Below are positions 9,079 to 25,715 of a stretch of DNA of 25,715 nt, one piece after another. How positions within the stretch are numbered: position 1 is the first letter of the stretch; every line of letters begins with the position of its first letter. The DNA comes from a virus. Both the position numbers and the translations under genes were made by a program. Below the pieces are notes generated by a model that worked only from the letters and a program-made list of their open reading frames with translations, searched no databases and was not told where the DNA came from. The DNA lies in the IMG/VR virus record IMGVR_UViG_3300005078_000034, positions 1-25,715 of that record; one strand, given 5' to 3'.

Positions 9079-11166
9079 CTATTGTGCGGTTATTTCTAAA
9101 GGCCCAAACCAAATAGGGTTGGCGCCGCTTGCGGTAATGGTTTCGTATCCGACTTGCAAGGCCGAAAAATTGAAGTTAAGGCGCCCGCGACTGAAATTTT
9201 TCAGATAGTTCGATCCGCTGTCGGGGTTCGCGCCGGAAAGGTCTGTTGGCAGCGTTACCGTTTTGGTTAAAAGCGCCGTGGTAGAAAAATCGCGGTAAAA
9301 CTTGATCACAGCGCTGCCACCGTTGCCGTCCGAGCGGATGCCGCTATAAAAGCGCCTGGCGGTCATATCGTCATGGGGAACGACTACGACGCCGGATTTC
9401 ATCGCATATGTTGGGGTCTGTGCGTCGTCGGTCAAAACAGAATCATTGAGTTTATACAGCACGCCTTGATCCGTTCCCATATACAGACCATCCTCGCCCT
9501 GGCCGAAAGCGGTAATGGCCTGATCGTTTCCGCCGACTTGCGGCAGGTTCAACTCCCACTTGGAAACCGGGTAATATCGCGTCTTCCGCCCACCAATCCG
9601 CGTGTGGAAAGCATAAATCCGCTGACCCTCACCGTCGTTCAGCTTGAGCAAGCAAAGGCCATAGATTGGCTCATAACCCATTACAGCGGTTGTGTCGTAT
9701 CCGGCGGTCACAATATCGGAGATATTATCCGAGCGGTTGCTTGACCGGATATCACCGAACTCGGTCATAGTATTAATGCTGTTCACGCCCGCCGGGTGAT
9801 AAAACAGAATATCGTCCGGTGTGGTGATGATCGCAGTCTGATGACTCGAAACTTGCTGCACGCTCTGCGTCTGTGCGTAGTTCGCCGGGGTCGAACCGGA
9901 TATGCGGGTTAGGCTCGGAGCTTTTGCGGATCCGAACAACCAGACATCATCATAAAACTCGACAATGCCCGCGATATCTCGCCCTGTGTCCAGGTAGCCG
10001 CCGTAATTCGGGGAGCTCCAATCAAACGGGTTTCCGGCGCCGCAATACCACAAGCGGCCTGGGTTGTCCGATCCGGTGCCCTCGATGCCAAAGATTCGGG
10101 AAGAACTCGACACACCAGTTTCAAGGGAAATTGGCAATTCACCGTTCAGGTTAAACATTGGCGCTGCGTTGGCGTATGCGTTCATGGTCGTTGGGGGTGT
10201 CAGACCGTGATAGTACCCATACCCAGCGGGCACGTTTTGAATCCCAAGTACTTTGGTATGGTGATACACATTACCGTAGCCCATCTCGTAGCAAAGATAA
10301 TATTCGGTGTCGGGTGACAGCTCCGTTGTGATATCGCTCGCTGCAAACGTGTAATGAAACTCTTTGAAGCCATCAACGTCCGGGTCGTCTTGGTCGAGGT
10401 CGCCCGTTGGGATCTCATCCAGGTCCATCAATTGCTTTGCCGCCATCACGGAAAGGTCGGAAACCTTGCGGATCCGCATGTATGGCTTTTCGCTTTCATA
10501 CCCTGATATGGCACCGTTGCCGTATCGCATCAGGCGAAGACTGAAGCCAATAGGCGGCATAGTGTAACCGCTTGTCCAGTCTGGGGTTGTGAATTTGATC
10601 GCCAGGGTGTTAATGGCGGAATATATGTAAAAGCATCTATATGTCAACGTGCTGCTGTTCGATAGCTCGCCGGCCCCGTTCTGGACAAAGTAGTTGGTGC
10701 CGCCTATGCCCTGATCCGGCAGCAAATCAATGCTTGAGCCGTCCCAATACTTTACATATCCACCGTCAAAAATGATAAGATAGTCCTTCAGTCCGACAAA
10801 CGTGATCGGCCCCTCAAACGTCGAATCACCTCCGATCTGGGTAACGCTCGTTCCGTTCTGCTTATATAGCCGATATGTACTCCCCTGCGTCGTGCTGATA
10901 ATCGTGTACCACGTTCCCTGCACCCGAACATCCTTGGCGTGGTAAACGCTGCCGGACATGCCAGAACAGACCTTTGACCAACCGGGGCGGCATCTCGGGT
11001 TCCCTTGGTCGTCAATAACGATGTTCTGGTATTCGCTACACTCCGTTGCGGCAAGCATATCCACCGGGCGAGACGTGACAAGGCCGCCAGTGAACGGGCC
11101 AAAGCGAACCGGGCGTTCTTTTCGTGGCTTGATTCTCGCGGAGATTTGATTCAGATTTCGATACAT
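9079..11166 (-). CDS. Beta-rich tail nozzle-like / head-closure virion protein (695 aa)
   Basis: Start chosen at ATG 11166, which overlaps the previous stop as TGATG; an in-frame GTG at 11169 is possible. After a basic N-terminus (residues 1-25), the protein is an almost continuous run of beta strands with repeated aromatic blades such as GSTYRLYKQNGTSVTQIGG, DYLIIFDGGYVKYWDG, RIFGIEGTGSDNPGRLWYCG and DGLYMGTDQGVLYKLND, consistent with a beta-propeller. The opening FGPFTGGLVTSRPVDML followed by ECSEYQNIVIDDQGNPRCRPG is typical of large proteins found after the adaptor gene in many podoviruses and some siphoviruses. In T7 this place is taken by gp12 (nozzle), in P22 by gp10. The nozzle role is inferred from size, fold pattern and order. 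Confidence 0.72.
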   Translation of the reverse strand: MYRNLNQISARIKPRKERPVRFGPFTGGLVTSRPVDMLAATECSEYQNIVIDDQGNPRCRPGWSKVCSGMSGSVYHAKDVRVQGTWYTIISTTQGSTYRLYKQNGTSVTQIGGDSTFEGPITFVGLKDYLIIFDGGYVKYWDGSSIDLLPDQGIGGTNYFVQNGAGELSNSSTLTYRCFYIYSAINTLAIKFTTPDWTSGYTMPPIGFSLRLMRYGNGAISGYESEKPYMRIRKVSDLSVMAAKQLMDLDEIPTGDLDQDDPDVDGFKEFHYTFAASDITTELSPDTEYYLCYEMGYGNVYHHTKVLGIQNVPAGYGYYHGLTPPTTMNAYANAAPMFNLNGELPISLETGVSSSSRIFGIEGTGSDNPGRLWYCGAGNPFDWSSPNYGGYLDTGRDIAGIVEFYDDVWLFGSAKAPSLTRISGSTPANYAQTQSVQQVSSHQTAIITTPDDILFYHPAGVNSINTMTEFGDIRSSNRSDNISDIVTAGYDTTAVMGYEPIYGLCLLKLNDGEGQRIYAFHTRIGGRKTRYYPVSKWELNLPQVGGNDQAITAFGQGEDGLYMGTDQGVLYKLNDSVLTDDAQTPTYAMKSGVVVVPHDDMTARRFYSGIRSDGNGGSAVIKFYRDFSTTALLTKTVTLPTDLSGANPDSGSNYLKNFSRGRLNFNFSALQVGYETITASGANPIWFGPLEITAQ

Positions 11167-11806: not shown

Positions 11807-12148
11807 CTAATCCAGTTTGATTACATAGTCGCCGTTTTCATCCACCACAAAATCCCCGTTTTTGTCCACCACGAAATCCCCCGAAACGGTATCGAACGGG
11901 AGGTTGTTCGGAATAGGCTTCCGGGCATTATTGGTGTCGAGGCATAGCCGGCAAACCCGCTTCCCTGTGCTGCTGCGGTACATCTTCCATTCGTCATCAA
12001 AAACGGTGCCGCAGATATCACAGCAATCCAGATAAGAGACAGTTTCGGTGTCTCCCGGCGTAGCCGTCTCTGTATCGTCCACGTTGTAGACGGTTTCCGA
12101 GAAAAGCTGCGCCGGGAGGTCCTCGCCTCTGTAGAGGATCCGGGCCAC
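11807..12148 (-). CDS. Zinc-ribbon-like protein with C-terminal octapeptide repeats (113 aa)
   Basis: Start chosen at GTG 12148, which overlaps the capsid stop as TAGTG; an upstream ATG at 12190 would lie 43 bases inside the capsid gene. The protein has two CxxC pairs, Cys43/Cys46 and Cys66/Cys69, spaced as in a zinc ribbon. The last 24 residues are three imperfect copies of an eight-residue unit (GDFVVDKN, GDFVVDEN, GDYVIKLD). The gene lies between the major capsid and the adaptor, where some phages encode neck or capsid-stabilising proteins. Function unknown; metal binding is inferred from cysteine spacing only. Confidence 0.65.
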   Translation of the reverse strand: MARILYRGEDLPAQLFSETVYNVDDTETATPGDTETVSYLDCCDICGTVFDDEWKMYRSSTGKRVCRLCLDTNNARKPIPNNLPFDTVSGDFVVDKNGDFVVDENGDYVIKLD

Positions 12149-13068: not shown

Positions 13069-13629
13069 TTAGACGCCGGCGGCGCCGGTGCCTGCGCTGT
13101 TCTGGTGGTTGTTGATTTTGACAATCCAATTTGCATTGTCGCCAATGGCGTTGCCGGGGGTCTGGGCAAGGCGAAGGATCCGCACCTGAAGCGACGCCGT
13201 GGTGTTTTTGTCGGAAGAATCCAATTCCCAACCGGAAAGGTTGGTGTTGGTGTCGCCGGTTCCGGAAACAAGGTTGGTGTTGAGGCCAATGTCCGCCTGC
13301 GTAAGTGCCGCGCCGCCGCTGTCCTCCTGCACAATGAACTCCTGCATCGGATCATCGGCAACAAGGCACATATACCCGGTTGCGCTACCTGCAGGGTAAT
13401 AGCCGACCGGGGCGCCGGTACTGTCAAAGACTGCCAGAACTGCACCGACAAGGGCGCCGGTATCGCCTGCGATGTCCACCGTCTGATAGCCGTCAGACGT
13501 CCCTGTGGAATCCAACTGGACCGGATCCCCGATGTAAATTGGGGTTGTGCCCGGCACAATCCCATAAGGCCGGGCGCTCAAGATCTTGCCGTTCGGTCTG
13601 AGTCCGAAGGCGCCGTCAGTGTTTGCCAT
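13069..13629 (-). CDS. Capsid decoration / head stabilisation-like protein (186 aa)
   Basis: The N-terminus MANTDGAFGLRPNGK closely resembles a widespread phage structural protein (pattern MAN.DaPfGLrP.g) encoded next to the major capsid gene in many podoviruses and marine phages. The rest is Gly-, Thr- and Asp-rich beta structure ending in a flexible tail, and there is no catalytic motif. ATG at 13629 has CAGGAG seven bases upstream. It is separated from the upstream genes by a rho-independent terminator and precedes the capsid gene by 12 bases, so capsid and decoration genes may form a transcription unit of their own. Decoration role is known for neighbours of this type and inferred here. 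Confidence 0.72.
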   Translation of the reverse strand: MANTDGAFGLRPNGKILSARPYGIVPGTTPIYIGDPVQLDSTGTSDGYQTVDIAGDTGALVGAVLAVFDSTGAPVGYYPAGSATGYMCLVADDPMQEFIVQEDSGGAALTQADIGLNTNLVSGTGDTNTNLSGWELDSSDKNTTASLQVRILRLAQTPGNAIGDNANWIVKINNHQNSAGTGAAGV

Positions 13630-13659
13630 GATGTTTTCTCCTGTTTGGGTTTTTGTGGG

Positions 13660-13700
13660 GGCACAAACAAAAAGCCCCCCGGATTTATTCCGAGGGGCTT
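13660..13700 (-). terminator. Rho-independent terminator (minus strand)
   Basis: On the minus strand a 12-bp stem with one G-T pair (arms 13689-13700 and 13672-13683, core GCCCC/GGGGC) and a five- to six-base loop is followed by TTTTTGTTTG. It ends transcription coming from the scaffold side before the decoration and capsid genes. Because it lies upstream of the most strongly needed gene, partial termination or a separate promoter for the capsid pair is implied. Confidence 0.8.
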
Positions 13701-13755
13701 CAGCGCGTCGGTTAAGACTGCCCGCTAAGTCGGGGGCAATCTGTGAAACTAAACT

Positions 13756-13857
13756 TTATTTGGTTGTTCTATCTCTTAGAAAGACCTCCAATTGCGATGC
13801 GGCGAACTTCAAGACGCGAACAATTACCTTGATAAGATCGAGTCCGTCCTTATTCAC
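13756..13857 (-). CDS. Candidate micro-protein (33 aa)
   Basis: A GTG at 13855-13857 overlaps the TGA of the preceding gene as GTGA and opens a frame of 33 codons. The predicted peptide (MNKDGLDLIKVIVRVLKFAA followed by SQLEVFLRDRTTK) would be an amphipathic helix with a hydrophobic face. The overlap style matches other coupled genes here; the ribosome site (AAAGG) is too close to be ideal. It fills part of the gap before the terminator at 13660-13700. Function unknown; chance is a real possibility. Confidence 0.38.
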   Translation of the reverse strand: MNKDGLDLIKVIVRVLKFAASQLEVFLRDRTTK

Positions 13858-14426
13858 GCCTTTAGATCCTCCGCGCTTCCGAAGTCATATTCAGCATTCG
13901 GGTCAAGGTCTATCGGGGTTCTGCCGTCGCCCTCATCCCGGATTTTCTCAATGGTGCCGGCCTCAAAGTGCTGCGTTCCTTCATATGGTTTCAATCCCAT
14001 GTTGAAGTCCCTGACGATCTGCGCGTTTTTCATGTCCACTGTCTCTTTCCATGTGTACATGAGAATATTTTGGTTCATGTAGAGCACGGCGCCGGTTGCC
14101 AGGTCGAAGTAGGCGTCCGGGACGTCCGGGTGATTCACCCGGTTCACCACTTGAAAGTCCATCATCTCGGCGGTACGGTCCCGGATGTTCTGAACGTTTC
14201 CCCACCGATAGGACCGGTCCTTGTTCTTGGTGAAGACGTCCGGCACGGCCATCAGGATCGGCGGCGAAAGTTCTTCAACGCTTTCAAAGCGGCGCGGCTC
14301 CTTGGCCGTCTTGACCGCCTGGAATATAGTCTTTTGCTGCTCTGACATGATGGCGCTCGGCATGTCCGGTTCCGGCATGATCGGGGGCTTGTCCGTTTTC
14401 TGCTCTGCTTTCTGCTTATCTGCCAT
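13854..14426 (-). CDS. Hypothetical protein in capsid module (190 aa)
   Basis: Start taken at ATG 14426, sharing a TGATG overlap with the scaffold-like gene's stop and preceded by AAAGG; an in-frame GTG is at 14429. Residues 1-25 are charged and Pro-rich, the middle is mixed alpha/beta with several Met and Tyr residues (YFDLATGAVLYMNQNILMYTW), and the C-terminus is acidic (DLDPNAEYDFGSAEDLKA). No family is recognised. It may follow the scaffold-like gene as a capsid assembly or completion factor; this is suggested by position only. Confidence 0.68.
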   Translation of the reverse strand: MADKQKAEQKTDKPPIMPEPDMPSAIMSEQQKTIFQAVKTAKEPRRFESVEELSPPILMAVPDVFTKNKDRSYRWGNVQNIRDRTAEMMDFQVVNRVNHPDVPDAYFDLATGAVLYMNQNILMYTWKETVDMKNAQIVRDFNMGLKPYEGTQHFEAGTIEKIRDEGDGRTPIDLDPNAEYDFGSAEDLKA

Positions 14427-15316
14427 CACATCACCTTTCTAACCGCTTCGTCCGAAACGCCGAATAACCGTTGAAACTTCCGGGTAGTTGGGTCAATCTG
14501 TTTCACGCTGCCTTTGTTGCCGCCCTTGCCGCCGCCGTGCATGGCGCCCTTCTTGACCGCTGCGCGCCTGGCGTCCGAGGCCGGGGGCGTTCTGGGGTTC
14601 GCCGGCGGATCATTGGGCGTCTGCTGCTGCTCCTGGGCCTGGTCGGGCGGTGCCTGGGCTTCCGGTTTCGGGTCTTCGCTTTTTGCTTCGGCGCTCGGCA
14701 TCTGCGGCGTATCGTTTTGGGAATCAGCATAGAAAATTTTAGCCATGTCTTGCGCCGCTTTCAGCACACCAGAACCGTCAGGGGTGTGCTGGTACTTCGG
14801 GTTGCTATAAAACACATTGGCCCATCTTGCGCGCACTGTCGGGTCTTTGGCGAAGGCCGGCACCTTCTCCGCAAGGCGCTCATATATCGAGTTATTCACG
14901 CTCTGCTGCCGCTGCATAACTTGCTCTTCGTGCTGCTGCGCCTCTTTCTGCCGTTCGATTTCCGCTACCCTGCGGGCGGCTTCGTTCGGATTCTGCGCCC
15001 AGTCTTCGTCCGTGGGTTCGGGTGCCGGTTGATGCTTGGCCGCTTCAAGCGCCTTCTTTGTCTCGTCAAGCTCTCGCCTTAACTGCGCGTGCTGTTCCAG
15101 GAAGAAGTCATAGCCCGCCTGATCCTTCGGTTTCTTGGGCTCGGGCTTCGGTTCCGGCTTGACTGGTTCCGCCGGTTCATCCACTTCGGGATAGGGCTTC
15201 TTCTTCTCCGGTTCCGGTTCTGGGGCCGCCTCTTCCATCAGCTCGTCGAGGGCTTCATTGAATCCGCCGCCGGCATAGGCGTCATCGTCTGTTGCGAACT
15301 CGAAAAAATCAGCCAT
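14426..15316 (-). CDS. Scaffolding-like protein (296 aa)
   Basis: The layout is typical of tailed-phage scaffolds. An acidic N-terminus is followed by a Pro/Glu/Lys-rich segment (residues ~30-66). A long charged coiled coil comes next (residues ~70-135, with HAQLRRELDETKKALEAAKH), then a helical middle and a second disordered Pro/Gln segment. The C-terminus is basic (RRAAVKKGAMHGGGKGGNKG, then TTRKFQRLFGVSDEAVRKVM), matching the capsid-binding tail of known scaffolds. ATG at 15316 has GGAGG about seven bases upstream. It lies between portal and capsid, the standard place. There is no visible protease domain, so the scaffold would leave intact or be cut by something not seen here. Confidence 0.74.
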   Translation of the reverse strand: MADFFEFATDDDAYAGGGFNEALDELMEEAAPEPEPEKKKPYPEVDEPAEPVKPEPKPEPKKPKDQAGYDFFLEQHAQLRRELDETKKALEAAKHQPAPEPTDEDWAQNPNEAARRVAEIERQKEAQQHEEQVMQRQQSVNNSIYERLAEKVPAFAKDPTVRARWANVFYSNPKYQHTPDGSGVLKAAQDMAKIFYADSQNDTPQMPSAEAKSEDPKPEAQAPPDQAQEQQQTPNDPPANPRTPPASDARRAAVKKGAMHGGGKGGNKGSVKQIDPTTRKFQRLFGVSDEAVRKVM

Positions 15317-19148: not shown

Positions 19149-19804
19149 CAATACCCCTCTTTCTGTTCAAACTCGAAATCGTCCCATGCAGGGCGCTTGG
19201 GTTTATATGGGTACATCTCCCAGGAGCAAACCACTTGAGCGAGTGCATGCGCTGCCGGGTATCGCTGCCAGGGCTCTATCCGATCCTGCACTTTGATCGA
19301 CTCGGGCCGAAGCGCTGAATATTCGCGATCAATGATGGTGTTCTCTGGAATAACAATAGCTTCTTTGTCGTTTAAGTCCTCCATCATCGGAATGGCACGT
19401 TCGATGCTGGCGAAATCGCTCGCGTCATAAACCGCCGGCGCTTCTCGTGGTAGTCTCCGGTACGCCTGAATAACCTTCTTGCGGACCACGCTAAAATCGT
19501 CTTCCAAATATGCGTAAATCCCGCTGCATCCGTAATCAATCGCCGCCGGGAATAGCTTGTTCAGCATATCCTCGACGGTGCGGAATCCCTGCCGCTCGGA
19601 AAGCAGGACCACGGGCCGATAGCGCTCTTTTAGTAGCCCATAGATGGCATAGTAGCCCTCGTTCTGTGGGGTCGGCCAGGTAACACCCATGCGCCTATCA
19701 AGGAAAACATACGCCTTTGCGGGCCCGGTGCGGACTATGAGGCGGTCGCCGTCGAACTCCTTGACGGGTGACTTGTGCGCTTTTGTCGGGTGTAGGGGCT
19801 TCAT
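19148..19804 (-). CDS. Hypothetical protein linked to terminase (218 aa)
   Basis: Start placed at ATG 19804, which forms an ATGA overlap with the large terminase stop; an earlier in-frame ATG at 19870 would lie inside the terminase gene. Mixed alpha/beta protein: a beta-rich start (DRLIVRTGPAKAYVFLDRR), then YYAIYGLLKERYRPVVLLSE, which looks like a helix-strand unit, and an acidic aromatic C-terminus (WDDFEFEQKEGY). No nuclease or ATPase motif is obvious to me. The coupled translation with terminase suggests a partner in DNA packaging. Not recognised. Confidence 0.68.
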   Translation of the reverse strand: MKPLHPTKAHKSPVKEFDGDRLIVRTGPAKAYVFLDRRMGVTWPTPQNEGYYAIYGLLKERYRPVVLLSERQGFRTVEDMLNKLFPAAIDYGCSGIYAYLEDDFSVVRKKVIQAYRRLPREAPAVYDASDFASIERAIPMMEDLNDKEAIVIPENTIIDREYSALRPESIKVQDRIEPWQRYPAAHALAQVVCSWEMYPYKPKRPAWDDFEFEQKEGY

Positions 19805-21192
19805 ATCTTCCGCCTCCGCACCTTTGACATCACGCGCCCGTGGTCGCCAAGCTCCATTGCAATATGACACGCCTCATCATAAACGTGGTCCTCCTGGGTC
19901 GTGTCGATGTCTTCCGGGTTGTCCTCGTCCATTGACAGTGCCGGAATGGTTCGGATGAAATGCTTGCAGTTTTTGGTGACTTGGATCATGGGGCGCTCGC
20001 CGGGCTTGTATGTCAGTTTCTCCCGGAAAGCTCTGATCTTAAGCGCTCTGGAAGGGTCGCCGGGTAGTAAGTGGATGCCTTTTGCCGAAAAAACGTCTGC
20101 GGTTGATGGCCCCTGTCCGCCGCCCTGAAAATTGGGCTTCTTGTTGAAGCAAGTCGGATCACAAAGGCGCTTGATGTGCAGACCACTGATGCCCATGTTA
20201 TACTCGCGCTCGTTGATGCCGTCCGCTACGTCTGAGTCTATAAGGCGTGCGCCCTCGTCGGGCACGCCATTCCACCCGTACCACTCGTTGAACCTGATAG
20301 CCCTGCCGTCCGGGTCCGTGTACCACCATCCAATTGAAAAGGGTTTTCCAAAACCCCAGTCATACGTCATGTAAAGCGGCGCGCCTGCTGGCGGATCGTG
20401 TGGCTGTATGACATGCATCTCTTCCGAAAAAACAAACGCTTGGCCGATAAACACGTCCCAATCGCCATCGAGCCATGCCCTTTTCAATACCGGGTCTTGA
20501 ATACTCCTAAGTCGATTGACATACTTGGGATCATTCAACACAAGGTATTTGTTGTCATCAAGAAAAGACTGAATAAAGATTCGCGTCTCTACTTCGCCGC
20601 TGTCTCCGATAGGGTATCTAACCAGTGTGCCGGGGTTCTTGCCGTCCTTGCCAAGCTGAAAGAATGATTTAACCTGGACGTGGCCGGATCCGCCAGGGTT
20701 GCCAGTGCAAAAGATCGAGCAAGGCACACCATGTGGGGAACGGTTGCAGCCTCGAAGTTTGTCAATGGCTTTGAGAAAGAACGGCAGGCGCGGGGCTTCG
20801 TCAAGATCTATCTCTGGGTACTGATGGCCCTGAAAGTCGTCCAGCATGTCTGGTCGAGATACGGCAATCATCTGCGCCTGCGCCCCGTTTTCAAATCGGA
20901 TGATATTCGGCTGATTCTCACCACCAACAATTTCAATTGGAAGCCCGTCATTCCGTAGCTGCCGCCACCGACTGCGCAACTCTGAAAAGTCCTTGTATTT
21001 CCGTCTCAGAATCAAGGAACTCCATTTGTCGCCGTAGATCTCCGCGCCCCGTATATTCCTCCCAATGAGACAGTCCGATTTCCCACCCCCACGAGTGCCA
21101 CCAAATAGGATTACATCCGCCGGGCAGGTGAGCGCCCTGGTTTGTGGCCCTGGCTGCGGATTCCATATGCCTTTAGTCATCGCCGCCTTCAT
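19801..21192 (-). CDS. terL: Terminase large subunit (TerL, 463 aa)
   Basis: The packaging motor and nuclease. It cuts concatemeric phage DNA and pumps it into the head through the portal using ATP. N-terminal ATPase: Walker A GGTRGGGKS at residues 31-39, Walker B with catalytic acid PEIDLDEA at 126-133, and coupling motif TGNPGG at 163-168. C-terminal RuvC-type nuclease: likely metal-binding Asp278 in MTYDWGFGKP, Asp345 and Asp439 in HVYDEACHIAM. The length is usual. ATG at 21192 has AGGA five bases upstream and overlaps the small subunit gene by 20 bases; a second ATG at 21180 is possible. Motifs are complete, so the protein should be active. Confidence 0.93.
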   Translation of the reverse strand: MKAAMTKGIWNPQPGPQTRALTCPADVILFGGTRGGGKSDCLIGRNIRGAEIYGDKWSSLILRRKYKDFSELRSRWRQLRNDGLPIEIVGGENQPNIIRFENGAQAQMIAVSRPDMLDDFQGHQYPEIDLDEAPRLPFFLKAIDKLRGCNRSPHGVPCSIFCTGNPGGSGHVQVKSFFQLGKDGKNPGTLVRYPIGDSGEVETRIFIQSFLDDNKYLVLNDPKYVNRLRSIQDPVLKRAWLDGDWDVFIGQAFVFSEEMHVIQPHDPPAGAPLYMTYDWGFGKPFSIGWWYTDPDGRAIRFNEWYGWNGVPDEGARLIDSDVADGINEREYNMGISGLHIKRLCDPTCFNKKPNFQGGGQGPSTADVFSAKGIHLLPGDPSRALKIRAFREKLTYKPGERPMIQVTKNCKHFIRTIPALSMDEDNPEDIDTTQEDHVYDEACHIAMELGDHGRVMSKVRRRKI

Positions 21193-21664
21193 CGGCTTCC
21201 TGGCACTGTCGCTCCCATTCAGCGATGGTCATCGGTGCCGGGCCTCCTGCCCATTGGTGTTTGATCGGGCCCCCTTCCGGGCCGGTGTGTTTGAGATTCT
21301 GGTTATCGGACCACTTGAACCGGTTTTTCATATTCATGTACCACCCGGTATAAGAGAAGTCTTTGTTTTCAAGGTTGGTCCTTCCGCTCTTCAGCCACCA
21401 CGCCTTAGAAAGTTCAACACCGATTTTTAAGGCGTCAGATAGAGACGGCTTGTAATATTGGGATTCCGGGTTGGTCCATTGGTTGAATGTCTCCCTTGTG
21501 ATGCCAATCTCTGCGCAAACTTCCGTCTTGCTTGCACCCTCTGACATCTCCCGGATAACCACGTCATCCATTTCAGGCTTGTATTTTGTTTCAAACCTTT
21601 TTGGCACCGTCCACCACCCAAACATTTTTGACTTCGCACCACCCGGCGCCGATCTGTCGGCCAT
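21173..21664 (-). CDS. terS: Terminase small subunit-like protein (163 aa)
   Basis: Recognises the packaging site and guides the large subunit. Residues ~25-70 hold YKPEMDDVVIREMSEGASKT then EVCAEIGITRETFNQW, a helix-turn-helix of the kind found in small terminases. MNMKNRFKWSDNQNLKHTG near residues 110-128 is a signature common in this family. It lies directly before terL. The start is uncertain: ATG 21664 gives a 74-base overlap with the preceding gene and no clear ribosome site; ATG 21625 (MFGWW) is the main alternative. Confidence 0.83.
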   Translation of the reverse strand: MADRSAPGGAKSKMFGWWTVPKRFETKYKPEMDDVVIREMSEGASKTEVCAEIGITRETFNQWTNPESQYYKPSLSDALKIGVELSKAWWLKSGRTNLENKDFSYTGWYMNMKNRFKWSDNQNLKHTGPEGGPIKHQWAGGPAPMTIAEWERQCQEADEGGDD

Positions 21665-21854
21665 ACTTATTTGTCGGGGGAAAGTCCCGGTAGCTCAAGC
21701 TCGGGCATCCCTTACAGCCCTTGGCACAATGTTCGCAAGTGTCCATACAGTTGATGACCGGGGAGTCGGCCTTGCTCGGATCTCCGAACCGGCCTACAAG
21801 CCGATCATGCATCGCGCTGCGCCGTTCCTCCGGATAAAGATAGTGCTGTGTCAT
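21591..21854 (-). CDS. Cysteine-rich small protein (87 aa)
   Basis: ATG at 21854; upstream GGGTGGGAA is only a modest ribosome site. Six cysteines, five in a compact cluster CMDTCEHCAKGCKGC (residues ~36-50) and one later (GAGWCEVKN), suggest metal or iron-sulfur binding. No known family. The 3' end overlaps the small terminase frame. The parS palindrome at 21869-21884 lies just upstream of its start. Confidence 0.6.
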   Translation of the reverse strand: MTQHYLYPEERRSAMHDRLVGRFGDPSKADSPVINCMDTCEHCAKGCKGCPSLSYRDFPPTNKYGRQIGAGWCEVKNVWVVDGAKKV

Positions 21855-21991: not shown

Positions 21992-22211
21992 CGCATTCCA
22001 TGCAGCCGTTTTCAGAATACGGGTTTGCGTTCGGGACGAACCGAACTTGCTCCCATCTTTGAGCGTAGACAATATAACGATAAATCGTCATATTATCTCT
22101 GTAGAACCAAAGCACTGGGCCGCCGTTCTGGTTGTTCGAAGCCCCGAAGGGTTTCAGCTCCGTCATTGGGATTGTCGGGTGCTCCTGATACGCGTAACCG
22201 ATATCTTTCAT
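21975..22211 (-). CDS. Hypothetical protein (78 aa) with C-terminal CxxCxxxC
   Basis: ATG at 22211 overlaps the previous stop as ATGA. The central part is aromatic and beta-like (VLWFYRDNMTIYRYIVYAQRW) and the end is NGCMECDGNCD, three clustered cysteines that may bind metal. No family is recognised. It is the last of a chain of four overlapping small genes read from 22757, which also contains a holin candidate. Confidence 0.6.
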   Translation of the reverse strand: MKDIGYAYQEHPTIPMTELKPFGASNNQNGGPVLWFYRDNMTIYRYIVYAQRWEQVRFVPNANPYSENGCMECDGNCD

Positions 22212-22441
22212 TTTTTTACAACCTCCGTAATGATATCGGCAATTTCCTCCTTGCGCTGCGACAGCACGGAGCGCATGGCTTTCAAAAACGGGATGACAAG
22301 GGCATCATCCACCTTGGATTCCGTCTCTTCGATGTATGCTCCTACCCGGTCAAGCAGGGCGCCGACCGCTCCGGCGCTGACAATCTGGTGGATAAACTGA
22401 ATCAGAATTTCAATTCCAATTTGTACAAGGATTGCTTTCAT
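22208..22441 (-). CDS. Hypothetical small amphipathic protein (77 aa)
   Basis: ATG at 22441 overlaps the stop of the preceding two-helix membrane protein as ATGA. The N-terminus MKAILVQIGIEILIQFIHQI is hydrophobic with a few polar residues, so it may lie on or in the membrane; residues 35-77 are charged helix (RVGAYIEETESKVDDALVIP, RKEEIADIITEVVKK). No spanin, lipobox or enzyme motif is seen. Its place next to a holin candidate suggests a lysis or membrane role, unproven. Confidence 0.6.
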   Translation of the reverse strand: MKAILVQIGIEILIQFIHQIVSAGAVGALLDRVGAYIEETESKVDDALVIPFLKAMRSVLSQRKEEIADIITEVVKK

Positions 22442-22605
22442 TTAAACTCTTTCCTGATTTTTATGGCTATCCAAAAGCCCTGCAGCAGTCCAACAAAAAT
22501 AGAGACACAAATCAGCAGGTCGGATGCACATGGAAAATGAGCCACAACCCAACACCACGCCGATACCACCCAGCCGGAATTTTCGCGCACTATCCTTGTT
22601 GGCAT
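22438..22605 (-). CDS. Two-helix membrane protein, holin candidate (55 aa)
   Basis: A short frame from ATG 22605 codes a protein with two hydrophobic stretches, WVVSAWCWVVAHF (residues ~12-24) and DLLICVSIFVGLLQGFWIAI (29-48), a basic N-terminus and a basic tail KIRKEFK. Small size, two transmembrane helices and charged ends fit a class II type holin, which would form the membrane lesion letting the endolysin reach the wall. A GTG start at 22590, sharing TAGTG with the upstream stop, is an alternative. The stop overlaps the next gene as ATGA. The endolysin gene lies 1.6 kb upstream, not adjacent. The holin role is an inference from topology alone. Confidence 0.58.
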   Translation of the reverse strand: MPTRIVRENSGWVVSAWCWVVAHFPCASDLLICVSIFVGLLQGFWIAIKIRKEFK

Positions 22606-22757
22606 GACCTGGGCCCAACGTAAACGCTACCGGCGACGACTCCGCCGTCAGGCAATGGTGTATCGTAATCACGAATAGAAAAAAGCCCCGACAGCCAAGC
22701 TTGATAGGCGTCGAGCCATTTATATAAAATTTCAAATGGATTTAACCATATACACAT
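22590..22757 (-). CDS. Hypothetical small protein (55 aa)
   Basis: A frame from ATG 22757, first of the leftward block after the divergent region. It encodes MCIWLNPFEILYKWLDAYQA and ends GSVYVGPRSCQQG; the start is aromatic and helix-like, the middle (RDYDTPLPDGGVV) coil. Not recognised. A weak GGTG precedes the ATG by about five bases. It overlaps the holin candidate by 16 bases (or one base if that gene starts at GTG 22590), which supports both being real. Confidence 0.52.
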   Translation of the reverse strand: MCIWLNPFEILYKWLDAYQAWLSGLFSIRDYDTPLPDGGVVAGSVYVGPRSCQQG

Positions 22758-23044
22758 CGAAACACCGTTTTTTTAATTTTATAGCTGCCCCCTCTTAGCA
22801 CAAAGTTAATCGTAGTGCAAGGTTTTTTTTGCACTGAGCGAAAATAATTGCAGACAAAAAAATGCCCTTTGCCTATTTTTTTTCTTGACATCTTGATTAT
22901 CTTAATACACATTGTAATCAAACAAAGGGAAAAACCACCAACCGCCCCGCTCCGGCGGGGCACCATAAAATCAACCCGGTCAAGGGGAACGCTGAGCCGG
23001 GAAAAACTTTAGCCCTAAGCCGGGGCGACACAAAAGGAGGAATT
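22758..23044. promoter_or_regulatory. Divergent control region and leader without a gene
   Basis: 287 bases lie between the leftward small-gene block and the rightward cysteine-rich gene. The part 22760-22930 is strongly A+T rich and carries several inverted repeats. AGTGCAA/TTGCACT is at 22814-22835 (7-bp arms, 8-base loop), TTGATTA/TAATCAA at 22893-22921, and CCCTTTG/CAAAGGG at 22865-22871 and 22923-22929. A TTGACA hexamer is at 22885-22890 and TGTAAT at 22913-22918 on the plus strand, but their spacing (22) is wrong, so no promoter is firmly called. TATAAA on the minus strand near 22780 could serve the leftward genes. The part 22930-23044 is a GC-rich leader. Confidence 0.5.
22944..23027 (+). 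promoter_or_regulatory. Structured 5' leader of the plus-strand gene
   Basis: The leader holds a strong hairpin, GCCCCGC (22944-22950), loop TCCG, GCGGGGC (22955-22961), and a second stem CCCGG (22975-22979) with CCGGG (22997-23001). CGCCCCG at 22943-22949 can instead pair with CGGGGCG at 23021-23027, seven bases that lie shortly before the ribosome site AAAGGAGG. The two foldings exclude each other, as in RNA switches or attenuators. No known riboswitch class is recognised. Confidence 0.42.
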
Positions 23045-23278
23045 ATGGGATACATCGTAGACGGCATAGAAGTTTACACCATGCCTAGGGAAACCTTCGA
23101 ATTCGCAAATCCGTGCTCAGATCATGGTGGGCACGAATTTGCAGAAAAAATCTGCGCACATTGTGGCCGTGACTTTTGTTTCAATTGTTGCGGCCGGACG
23201 AACGTCCATGAAGGGGGGAAGTATCTCCCCGACTTCATGACCTGCCCTAATTGCGGGCAGGATTACTATGAGGGTTAG
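23045..23278 (+). CDS. Cysteine-rich zinc-binding-like moron protein (77 aa)
   Basis: The only well supported gene on the plus strand. ATG at 23045 has AAAGGAGG five to six bases upstream, the best ribosome site of this area. Eight cysteines at 24, 37, 40, 45, 48, 49, 67 and 70 form CAHCGRDFCFNCCG and TCPNCGQDYY, resembling treble-clef or zinc-ribbon modules that bind two metal ions. No family name can be given. Own control region, structured leader and terminator make it an independent cassette (a moron), often expressed from a prophage or late in infection to alter the host. Nothing in the protein tells its target. Confidence 0.8.
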   Translation: MGYIVDGIEVYTMPRETFEFANPCSDHGGHEFAEKICAHCGRDFCFNCCGRTNVHEGGKYLPDFMTCPNCGQDYYEG

Positions 23279-23313
23279 CTTAGGCTTTAAAAGAATATTT
23301 GAGTTGAAGAATT

Positions 23314-23341
23314 CCGGGGGCCTCGCGCCCCCGGTTTTTTT
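23314..23341 (+). terminator. Rho-independent terminator of plus-strand gene
   Basis: An eight-base stem CCGGGGGC/GCCCCCGG (23314-23321 and 23327-23334) with a five-base loop is followed by seven T (23335-23341). It lies 35 bases after the stop at 23278. On the minus strand there is no T run after the stem, so it acts mainly rightward. Confidence 0.9.
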
Positions 23342-23374
23342 GCTCATGCCTCGCCACGCTCAAGCATGGCAGCG

Positions 23375-23938: not shown

Positions 23939-24181
23939 TTATCCGCCTATCCTGGCTAACCCGGTAATACTGATTTGCTCGGGCATCAATTTACACCCGA
24001 TAGCTGCGCCTGTATCTTCCGCAATCTCCATGCGCAGGTCCTCAACACTGTTCGACGTCAGCCTTGGTCTAAATGCATACACCCCATCGCCGTAGATGGG
24101 CATTTTACCCGGTATGTTCGCAACCCAGCAAACATGCCATGTCTGTCTGTACCCAGCGGCGGATAATAACTTGTTCAGCAT
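23939..24181 (-). CDS. Hypothetical protein (80 aa)
   Basis: ATG at 24181 overlaps the endolysin gene by seven bases, with AGGA about ten bases upstream. A small mixed alpha/beta protein: beta-like start (TWHVCWVANIPGKMPIYGDG), a helix (SVEDLRMEIAEDTGAAIGCK) and a beta end (ISITGLARIGG). No known family. The overlap suggests translation coupled to the endolysin. Confidence 0.62.
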   Translation of the reverse strand: MLNKLLSAAGYRQTWHVCWVANIPGKMPIYGDGVYAFRPRLTSNSVEDLRMEIAEDTGAAIGCKLMPEQISITGLARIGG

Positions 24182-24693
24182 TGCTTACTCATCCTAACCG
24201 CCCGGTTCACCCACCCGAGCAGAAATTTTTTCATCCCCGGCCGCTTCTGGCACAGCGCCGCGTAATATGCCACCCGCCGCATCCCATAGGCCGCCAGGAA
24301 CCACCGCGGTTCCACCTCCTTCAGTGCCGCCGCGGTCCGGGCCCCGCACACCCCATCCACCGCCACCCCGACAAGGTTCTGTGCCGTCTTGACCGCCAGA
24401 ACCACTCCGGCGTTCACCGCATAGTCGAAGACCGCCTCGGCTATGGCCTGACACGGCAGCAGGTCCCCGCAAACCGGGCGCCAGAAATTCCGGTGGTAAA
24501 ACTCCGCCACCAGATCCGCCGGGACCGCATCCGGCCCGTCCCTGTCGATCACCGCCCAACCAGGCCAGTCCGGCCACCGCCTCCGGGAAATCCCGGCGTA
24601 GGTCATACCGCCCGGATCCCCGTCCACCTTGTGGAGGCGATACCCGCCCTCATTGTCGATCACCCTGGCCAACGCCGCTTTGAAGTCCGCCAT
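24175..24693 (-). CDS. Endolysin, GH108 N-acetylmuramidase type (172 aa)
   Basis: Cleaves the glycan strands of peptidoglycan to release progeny. Start chosen at ATG 24693, with GGAGGG five bases upstream; a TTG further upstream is not needed. Residues 10-18 hold the motif RVIDNEGGY with Glu15 as the expected catalytic acid, and residues 26-36 hold DPGGMTYAGIS, the second hallmark of glycoside hydrolase family 108. The C-terminal half (QNLVGVAVDGVCGARTAAAL, then a basic end) matches the peptidoglycan-binding region usual in this family. Length is typical. There is no signal peptide or membrane anchor, so a holin is required. The 5' neighbour is a small basic protein gene. Confidence 0.9.
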   Translation of the reverse strand: MADFKAALARVIDNEGGYRLHKVDGDPGGMTYAGISRRRWPDWPGWAVIDRDGPDAVPADLVAEFYHRNFWRPVCGDLLPCQAIAEAVFDYAVNAGVVLAVKTAQNLVGVAVDGVCGARTAAALKEVEPRWFLAAYGMRRVAYYAALCQKRPGMKKFLLGWVNRAVRMSKQC

Positions 24694-25062: not shown

Positions 25063-25271
25063 CACGGCACCTCCACGATTTCCCAATCACCGCCGCCAAG
25101 AAACACACATTCCTTTTCCACGATAAAGATATCATATCCAGTATCGTCAGTAATCCAGAACCCCGGATCCACGCTGTTGGCCGTCTCCTCTTTTTTGATT
25201 TCTTAGAGCTTGCCCTCGGTTAAATCCTCTAAAAAATCATCATATCGGCTTTTAATTTTTGCATATTTCAT
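25062..25271 (-). pseudogene. Small phage gene interrupted by an in-frame TAA (22 + 46 codons)
   Basis: ATG at 25271 has GGAGGG seven bases upstream and encodes MKYAKIKSRYDDFLEDLTEG then KL, followed by TAA at 25203-25205. The same frame continues without interruption for 46 more codons (EIKKEETANSVDPGFWITDD, then TGYDIFIVEKECVFLGGGDW and EIVEVP) and ends with a TGA that overlaps the next start. Coding character and neighbour spacing are preserved on both sides, so a single substitution (for example from AAA, CAA or GAA) is the simplest explanation. A sequencing error, readthrough, or restart at the GTG at codon 34 are alternatives. No family is recognised. Confidence 0.6.
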
Positions 25272-25470
25272 TGTTGTTCCCTCCCTTTTTTTTGTAATGG
25301 GCACAAAAAAAATCTTTGTGTGTCTCGACAGTCTCTATAACGCACCCATCCCAACCACCCCTACAAATAATGTCCACATCGTCGCCGTCATTAAGGCCGG
25401 TGCAGTCGCCATATTCGCCTGCAAAACCTGTTTTATGCCGACTCCAAAAATCACATTCAGAACACCTCAT
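25252..25470 (-). CDS. Cysteine-rich small protein (72 aa)
   Basis: Start at ATG 25470, overlapping the previous stop as ATGA; an upstream in-frame start would lie inside that gene. The order MRCSECDFWSRHKTG, GDCTGLND, ICRGGWDGCV, FFCAHYKKK gives six cysteines and resembles the same metal-binding phage family as the gene at 15657-15941 (CxxCxxW start). Function unknown. It overlaps the following gene's start by 20 bases. Confidence 0.7.
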   Translation of the reverse strand: MRCSECDFWSRHKTGFAGEYGDCTGLNDGDDVDIICRGGWDGCVIETVETHKDFFCAHYKKKGGNNNEICKN

Positions 25471-25715
25471 TTGGACGCCCTCCTTAGTCTTTCCACCACA
25501 GCCGCTTTCTGCTCCTCGGTCATTACCCTTTTTTTCCGGCTCGGGTCTTTGCCTAACCTGAACGGCCACAAAGGGCATAACTCAACCAGACAGTTTTTAA
25601 TTTCGTCGTAGCTATAGCAAGAGCACTCCAGGCATTTCCTCCGGATCGCCCTGATGGGTGTTAGCTCCACTTCTTCGATTTTGCCGTCTTTCGTCCCGAT
25701 ATTGTGTTTTAGTGC
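25467..25715 (-). CDS. Cysteine-rich phage protein, start beyond right edge
   Basis: The frame is open to the window edge. A GTG at 25670 would give 67 residues, but coding pattern upstream (IGTKDGKIEE) continues in frame, so the true start may lie outside. The core ELTPIRAIRRKCLECSCYSY, then DEIKNCLVELCPLWPFRLGK is a small family common in phages and prophages (pattern IRaiC..CsgG...eVr.C....CpLypfR.Gk), presumably metal binding. Role unknown. It is linked by ATGA to the next cysteine-rich gene. Confidence 0.72.
   Translation of the reverse strand, partial: ALKHNIGTKDGKIEEVELTPIRAIRRKCLECSCYSYDEIKNCLVELCPLWPFRLGKDPSRKKRVMTEEQKAAVVERLRRASK

Follow-up and report, generated by a model that had tools for sequence, protein, structure and literature searches.

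The window (the whole stretch of DNA analyzed here, 25,715 bases, IMG/VR virus record IMGVR_UViG_3300005078_000034) carries head, portal, terminase and tail genes together with a GH108 endolysin, all read leftward, and a sole credible rightward gene at 23045-23278 (+), which encodes a 77-amino acid protein with eight cysteines (the zinc gene). Codon scores are positive for most leftward genes and negative for the other rightward ORFs scored. The zinc gene is flanked on its left by the genes for the large (19801-21192, -) and small (21173-21664, -) terminase subunits, and on its right by the endolysin gene (24175-24693, -), whose product combines GH108 (PF05838, E = 3.8e-19) with PG_binding_3 (PF09374, E = 3.5e-13). 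The first-pass annotation had described an independent plus-strand cassette separating an endolysin from a holin candidate. The endolysin is confirmed by both profiles, whereas the holin is not: the two short hydrophobic ORFs at 22208-22441 and 22438-22605 (both -), candidates for membrane or holin-like proteins on hydropathy, gave no family match in profile searches. Three small cysteine-rich leftward ORFs also lie around the cassette region (21591-21812, 25252-25470 and 25467-25715, all -), and a short tandem repeat (period 24, 2.1 copies) is found within a leftward gene at 11832-11881. Separating the small leftward genes from the cassette is a long stretch (22442-22930) whose ORFs are only weakly coding; it could be a site of leftward promoters or a packaging site.

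Expression Signals Around the Zinc Gene

The zinc gene has its own ribosome site and terminator, as expected of the independent unit first described, and the A+T-rich upstream region and structured leader that had been named alongside them are present too. The upstream tract at 22740-22930, a probable promoter region within long intergenic sequence, is 68% A+T against 47% for the window, a richness that just 0.13% of the window's segments of that length reach, and the weak ORFs within it have negative codon scores. A promoter-like site, TTGACA-17-CACATT (22885-22913, +), pairs an exact TTGACA at 22885 with a poor match to the -10 element; 11 of 300 shuffled sequences contained an equally good site (it beats about 96% of them), and a stricter promoter scan listed no promoter at 22885-22913, such that the window's own promoter is weakly indicated. 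The leader (22920-23044, +) folds into GC-rich hairpins at about 22944-22961 and 22975-23001, with a modest overall stability (-45 kcal/mol, z = -2.3) matched by 3 of 200 shuffles. It matches no Rfam family, which leaves a known riboswitch or non-coding RNA unsupported. A strong Shine-Dalgarno sequence, AAAGGAGG (23033-23040, +), is spaced about 4 nt from the ATG, and the gene is followed by a tight intrinsic terminator, CCGGGGGC-CTCGC-GCCCCCGG-T7 (23314-23341, +), comprising an 8-bp all-GC stem, a 5-nt loop and seven T residues, with a hairpin energy of -17.7 kcal/mol. The G+C content of the zinc gene (50%, against 53% for the window) gives no compositional sign of recent import.

A Family of Small Proteins with a Conserved Cysteine Pattern

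The codon score of the zinc gene is itself slightly negative (-0.08), and we consider the gene to be coding because of homology and not because of codon usage. Its product has six homologs in other phage contigs (E-values from 4e-15 to 2e-21), found by pattern scans of IMG/VR: a peptide pattern led to the first relative, L002, which is 46% identical to the window protein, and DNA patterns built on shared motifs led to five further phage contigs (L032/L039, L034/L040, L044/L049, L045/L052 and L046/L050). A further pattern match, L047, was set aside, as it looks like a chance frame within another gene. This homology also refutes the notion that the zinc gene is a chance ORF opposite a true coding frame running leftward (23117-23347), for which the odds are vanishingly small: while the codon score is slightly better for the antisense ORF (0.02 vs. 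-0.08), the sense frame is what the six contigs share, and the antisense echo amounts to one pair only (3e-5, between two relatives).

The members of this HE[YF]/NV[HD]xGGK family follow the pattern C-x(1-5)-H-x6-C-x(1-2)-C-x4-C-x2-CC-x3-NV[HD]xGGK[YH]-...-D[FY]M-x-CPxC. An alignment of the seven proteins contains 16 invariant columns, including six cysteines and one histidine; the conserved cysteines of the window protein are C37, C40, C45, C48, C49, C67 and C70, one of which is gapped by the aligner in places, and every member has an extra cysteine 2-6 residues N-terminal of the invariant histidine. The conserved cysteines and histidine would provide about eight ligands, suggesting two zinc sites, and this ligand pattern is kept in all seven members. 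The eight cysteines and paired, zinc-like arrangement reported in the first-pass annotation hold up in this respect, with a zinc-finger-like spacing conserved across the family. Between the CC and CPxC pairs sits the loop NV[HD]xGGK[YH]xxD[FY]M, whose non-ligand residues are more conserved than zinc ligation alone demands. AlphaFold models, from inputs of four and seven sequences, were poor (pLDDT 62-64); searches with these low-confidence models against PDB and BFVD returned no fold match and are uninformative.

No model in Pfam, PHROG, NCBIfam or PADLOC matched the window protein above its cut-off. The weak Pfam echoes of the family, all below cut-off for the window protein, are mostly to two-zinc domains (IBR, FYVE, B-box) and zinc ribbons. 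An anti-restriction or anti-defense protein of the Lar kind could be considered, given that the L002 protein weakly matches phrog_6422, a Lar-like restriction alleviation family (E = 0.0038). We regard this as improbable, since that match is confined to L002, falls short of significance for the family, and is not seen for the window protein or the other scanned members, and since PADLOC matched none of the seven proteins at E-values up to 1. Searches of 50,697 deposited phages and 72,556 plasmids gave no family match at E ≤ 1 at the sensitivity used, with only chance-level matches in the deposited phages at E ≤ 10, and scans of GTDB genomes found none, using narrow patterns that the KH variants L045 and L046 do not fit. 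The family is uncatalogued and new: as no curated model matches it above cut-off and the searched phages and plasmids contain no member at that sensitivity, routine annotation would overlook it.

Distribution and Genomic Position

The family occurs in at least seven contigs of phages that are not otherwise related, often with a promoter-like site and a terminator of its own. In an all-versus-all comparison of frames from the seven contigs, the zinc protein was the only protein common to all. The terminases of the family contigs belong to different PHROG families, indicating that the contigs are not close relatives. The only other cross-match among the seven is a radical-SAM-like pair, at 13098-14057 (-) in L049 and 14241-15173 (+) in L052, 25% identical over 155 amino acids.

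Six contigs have the terminase within reach, and each of them encodes the zinc protein on the strand opposite to it. A shared orientation with the leftward essential genes in all relatives had been named in the first-pass annotation as the observation that would speak against an independent cassette, and the reverse was found. The two genes are divergent in five contigs (window, L002, L040, L049 and L050) and convergent in L039; in the divergent contigs the zinc gene starts 1.9-4.2 kb from the start of the large terminase gene, on its upstream side. Given this opposite-strand placement upstream of the terminase, the zinc gene marks a divergent early/late junction, and the initial view of an insertion inside the late region needs correcting, as the position in these five contigs is not that of a random late-gene insertion. 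The endolysin and other leftward genes continue beyond the zinc gene in the window, unlike in most relatives.

This position raises an alternative, namely that the zinc gene is an ordinary early-region gene serving normal phage regulation (e.g., as a switch, or as a late activator like Ogr/Delta) and not an accessory moron. We consider this unlikely on balance, but the strongest of the competing explanations. Besides the recurrent location at the junction, it gains from the local context of several copies: those of L002 and L039 lie within same-strand gene runs, that of L050, like these two, lies amid other small same-strand genes, and that of L049 looks like the first gene past the strand switch. 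Against it, the gene is common to phages with unrelated terminases whose other genes do not match, and Ogr_Delta is not among the Pfam families listed at E-values up to 1. A core regulator would furthermore be expected in terminase relatives, yet the zinc family is absent from all 15 terminase relatives holding at least 1.9 kb of upstream sequence, all of which are at most 60% identical in TerL. The nearest relative, L004 (98% identical in TerL), ends about 237 bp upstream of TerL, too soon to show an empty site; no cassette context was obtained from the major-head and endolysin relatives. The L050 copy is immediately preceded, at about 9842-10061, by an almost perfect inverted repeat, some 22 bp long (AGTGCCATAAATTATGACACTT / AAGTGTCATAATTTATGGCACT), which may be an operator or attenuator.

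The terminators also bear on this question. A scan for hairpins of -15 kcal/mol or better with a T run, no more than about 140 nt past the stop codon, detected a strong terminator behind four of the seven family copies (window, L040, L049 and L052). Of the other predicted genes in those stretches, 2 of 165 had one, while none was detected behind the zinc genes of L002, L039 and L050. This excess (binomial P about 7e-7, a post hoc value for an unmatched comparison in which the other genes have less intergenic room) argues for a self-contained unit over an ordinary early-region gene. Promoter-like sites are present in two relatives, TTGACA-17-TATGCT in L040 (3 of 300 shuffles as good) and TTGACA-15-TATACT in L052 (2 of 300). 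The upstream regions of the relatives are unlike the leader in the window, some of them quite different, and no leader is visibly shared. This matters for a further alternative, in which the protein is an RNA-binding translational activator like Com of phage Mu, acting on a phage transcript or on its own leader. Both the small size of this phage zinc protein and the structured leader of the window copy would fit; the lack of a visibly shared leader counts against it, and we rate such a role as more improbable still than one in restriction alleviation. The promoter-like and terminator signals of the relatives, together with the sporadic occurrence and the absence from the 15 terminase relatives, fit the moron-like anatomy of the cassette, so the label it first received is largely supported.

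A Proposed Independently Expressed Adaptor

We suggest that the cassette is either a moron or a moron-like early gene for a two-zinc adaptor. A phage moron is the explanation we favor and consider reasonably probable, that is, a single-gene unit furnished with a promoter region, leader, ribosome site and terminator of its own, the two-zinc product of which would act on one partner. Located antisense to the terminase operon and near the early/late junction, the cassette would probably rely on the host RNA polymerase for transcription that does not depend on the late program. Judging from the conserved spacing, the product probably folds around two zinc ions, through a C..H pair followed by C..C, C..CC and CP.C, and the strictly conserved loop NV[HD]xGGK[YH]..D[FY]M is probably the docking surface for a single specific partner, with a host protein or nucleic acid the likeliest candidate. 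Such docking could reprogram host transcription or translation, or blunt a defense. The gene probably encodes a two-zinc adaptor, transcribed on its own and aimed at a host or regulatory target, with host-directed action as its most likely, if unproven, function. More speculatively, and with greater doubt, the proteins could represent a new phage family of two-zinc adaptors, encoded in a stand-alone expression cassette opposite the terminase, which moves between unrelated phages and hits one conserved bacterial target via the NV[HD]xGGK loop. A tightly conserved small protein in phages sharing little else is in any case a promising route to a host target that they have in common.

Comparison with Known Systems

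Several groups of small zinc proteins that influence defense or the expression of host or phage genes, namely TraR/Orf73, Com, Ogr/Delta and Lar, resemble the family in general terms, but differ in cysteine spacing (CxxC-17-CxxC in TraR; PMC9239242) and show no family match, the Pfam search for Ogr/Delta included. A local likeness is found in the IBR/RING, B-box and FYVE domains (PF01485, PF00643, PF01363), which share the spacing C..CG..FC[FYW].C. IBR is matched by five of the seven members (best E = 0.00053), with a best score of 20.4 bits against a cut-off of 24.3; these matches are below cut-off and without a fold match, and they leave the conserved NV[HD]xGGK loop unaccounted for.

As a class, morons are recognized by their own control signals, a foreign G+C content and occurrence in several phage classes (PMC2920897). 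The cassette resembles them in the terminator of the window copy (23314-23341), to which a probable promoter may be added, in its placement on the opposite strand, and in a sporadic distribution over more than one phage class, as seen from seven contigs with no other common protein. It differs in that the zinc gene has no clear G+C contrast, a feature that is usual but not obligatory, and in that several relatives' copies lie amid other small genes. The nearest documented analog is pid of Salmonella phage P22, a late-region ORFan moron of 86 amino acids that runs counter to its neighboring genes, with an AAGGAG ribosome site and a Rho-independent terminator, and present or absent among related phages (PMC3573128). 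Pid derepresses the dgo operon of the host (PMC3573128), whereas the zinc protein is only proposed to act on its host. In both cases a small protein of an unclassified family is encoded against the surrounding genes, behind a ribosome site and ahead of a terminator; the cassette type is in this sense already known, and the family that it carries here is new.
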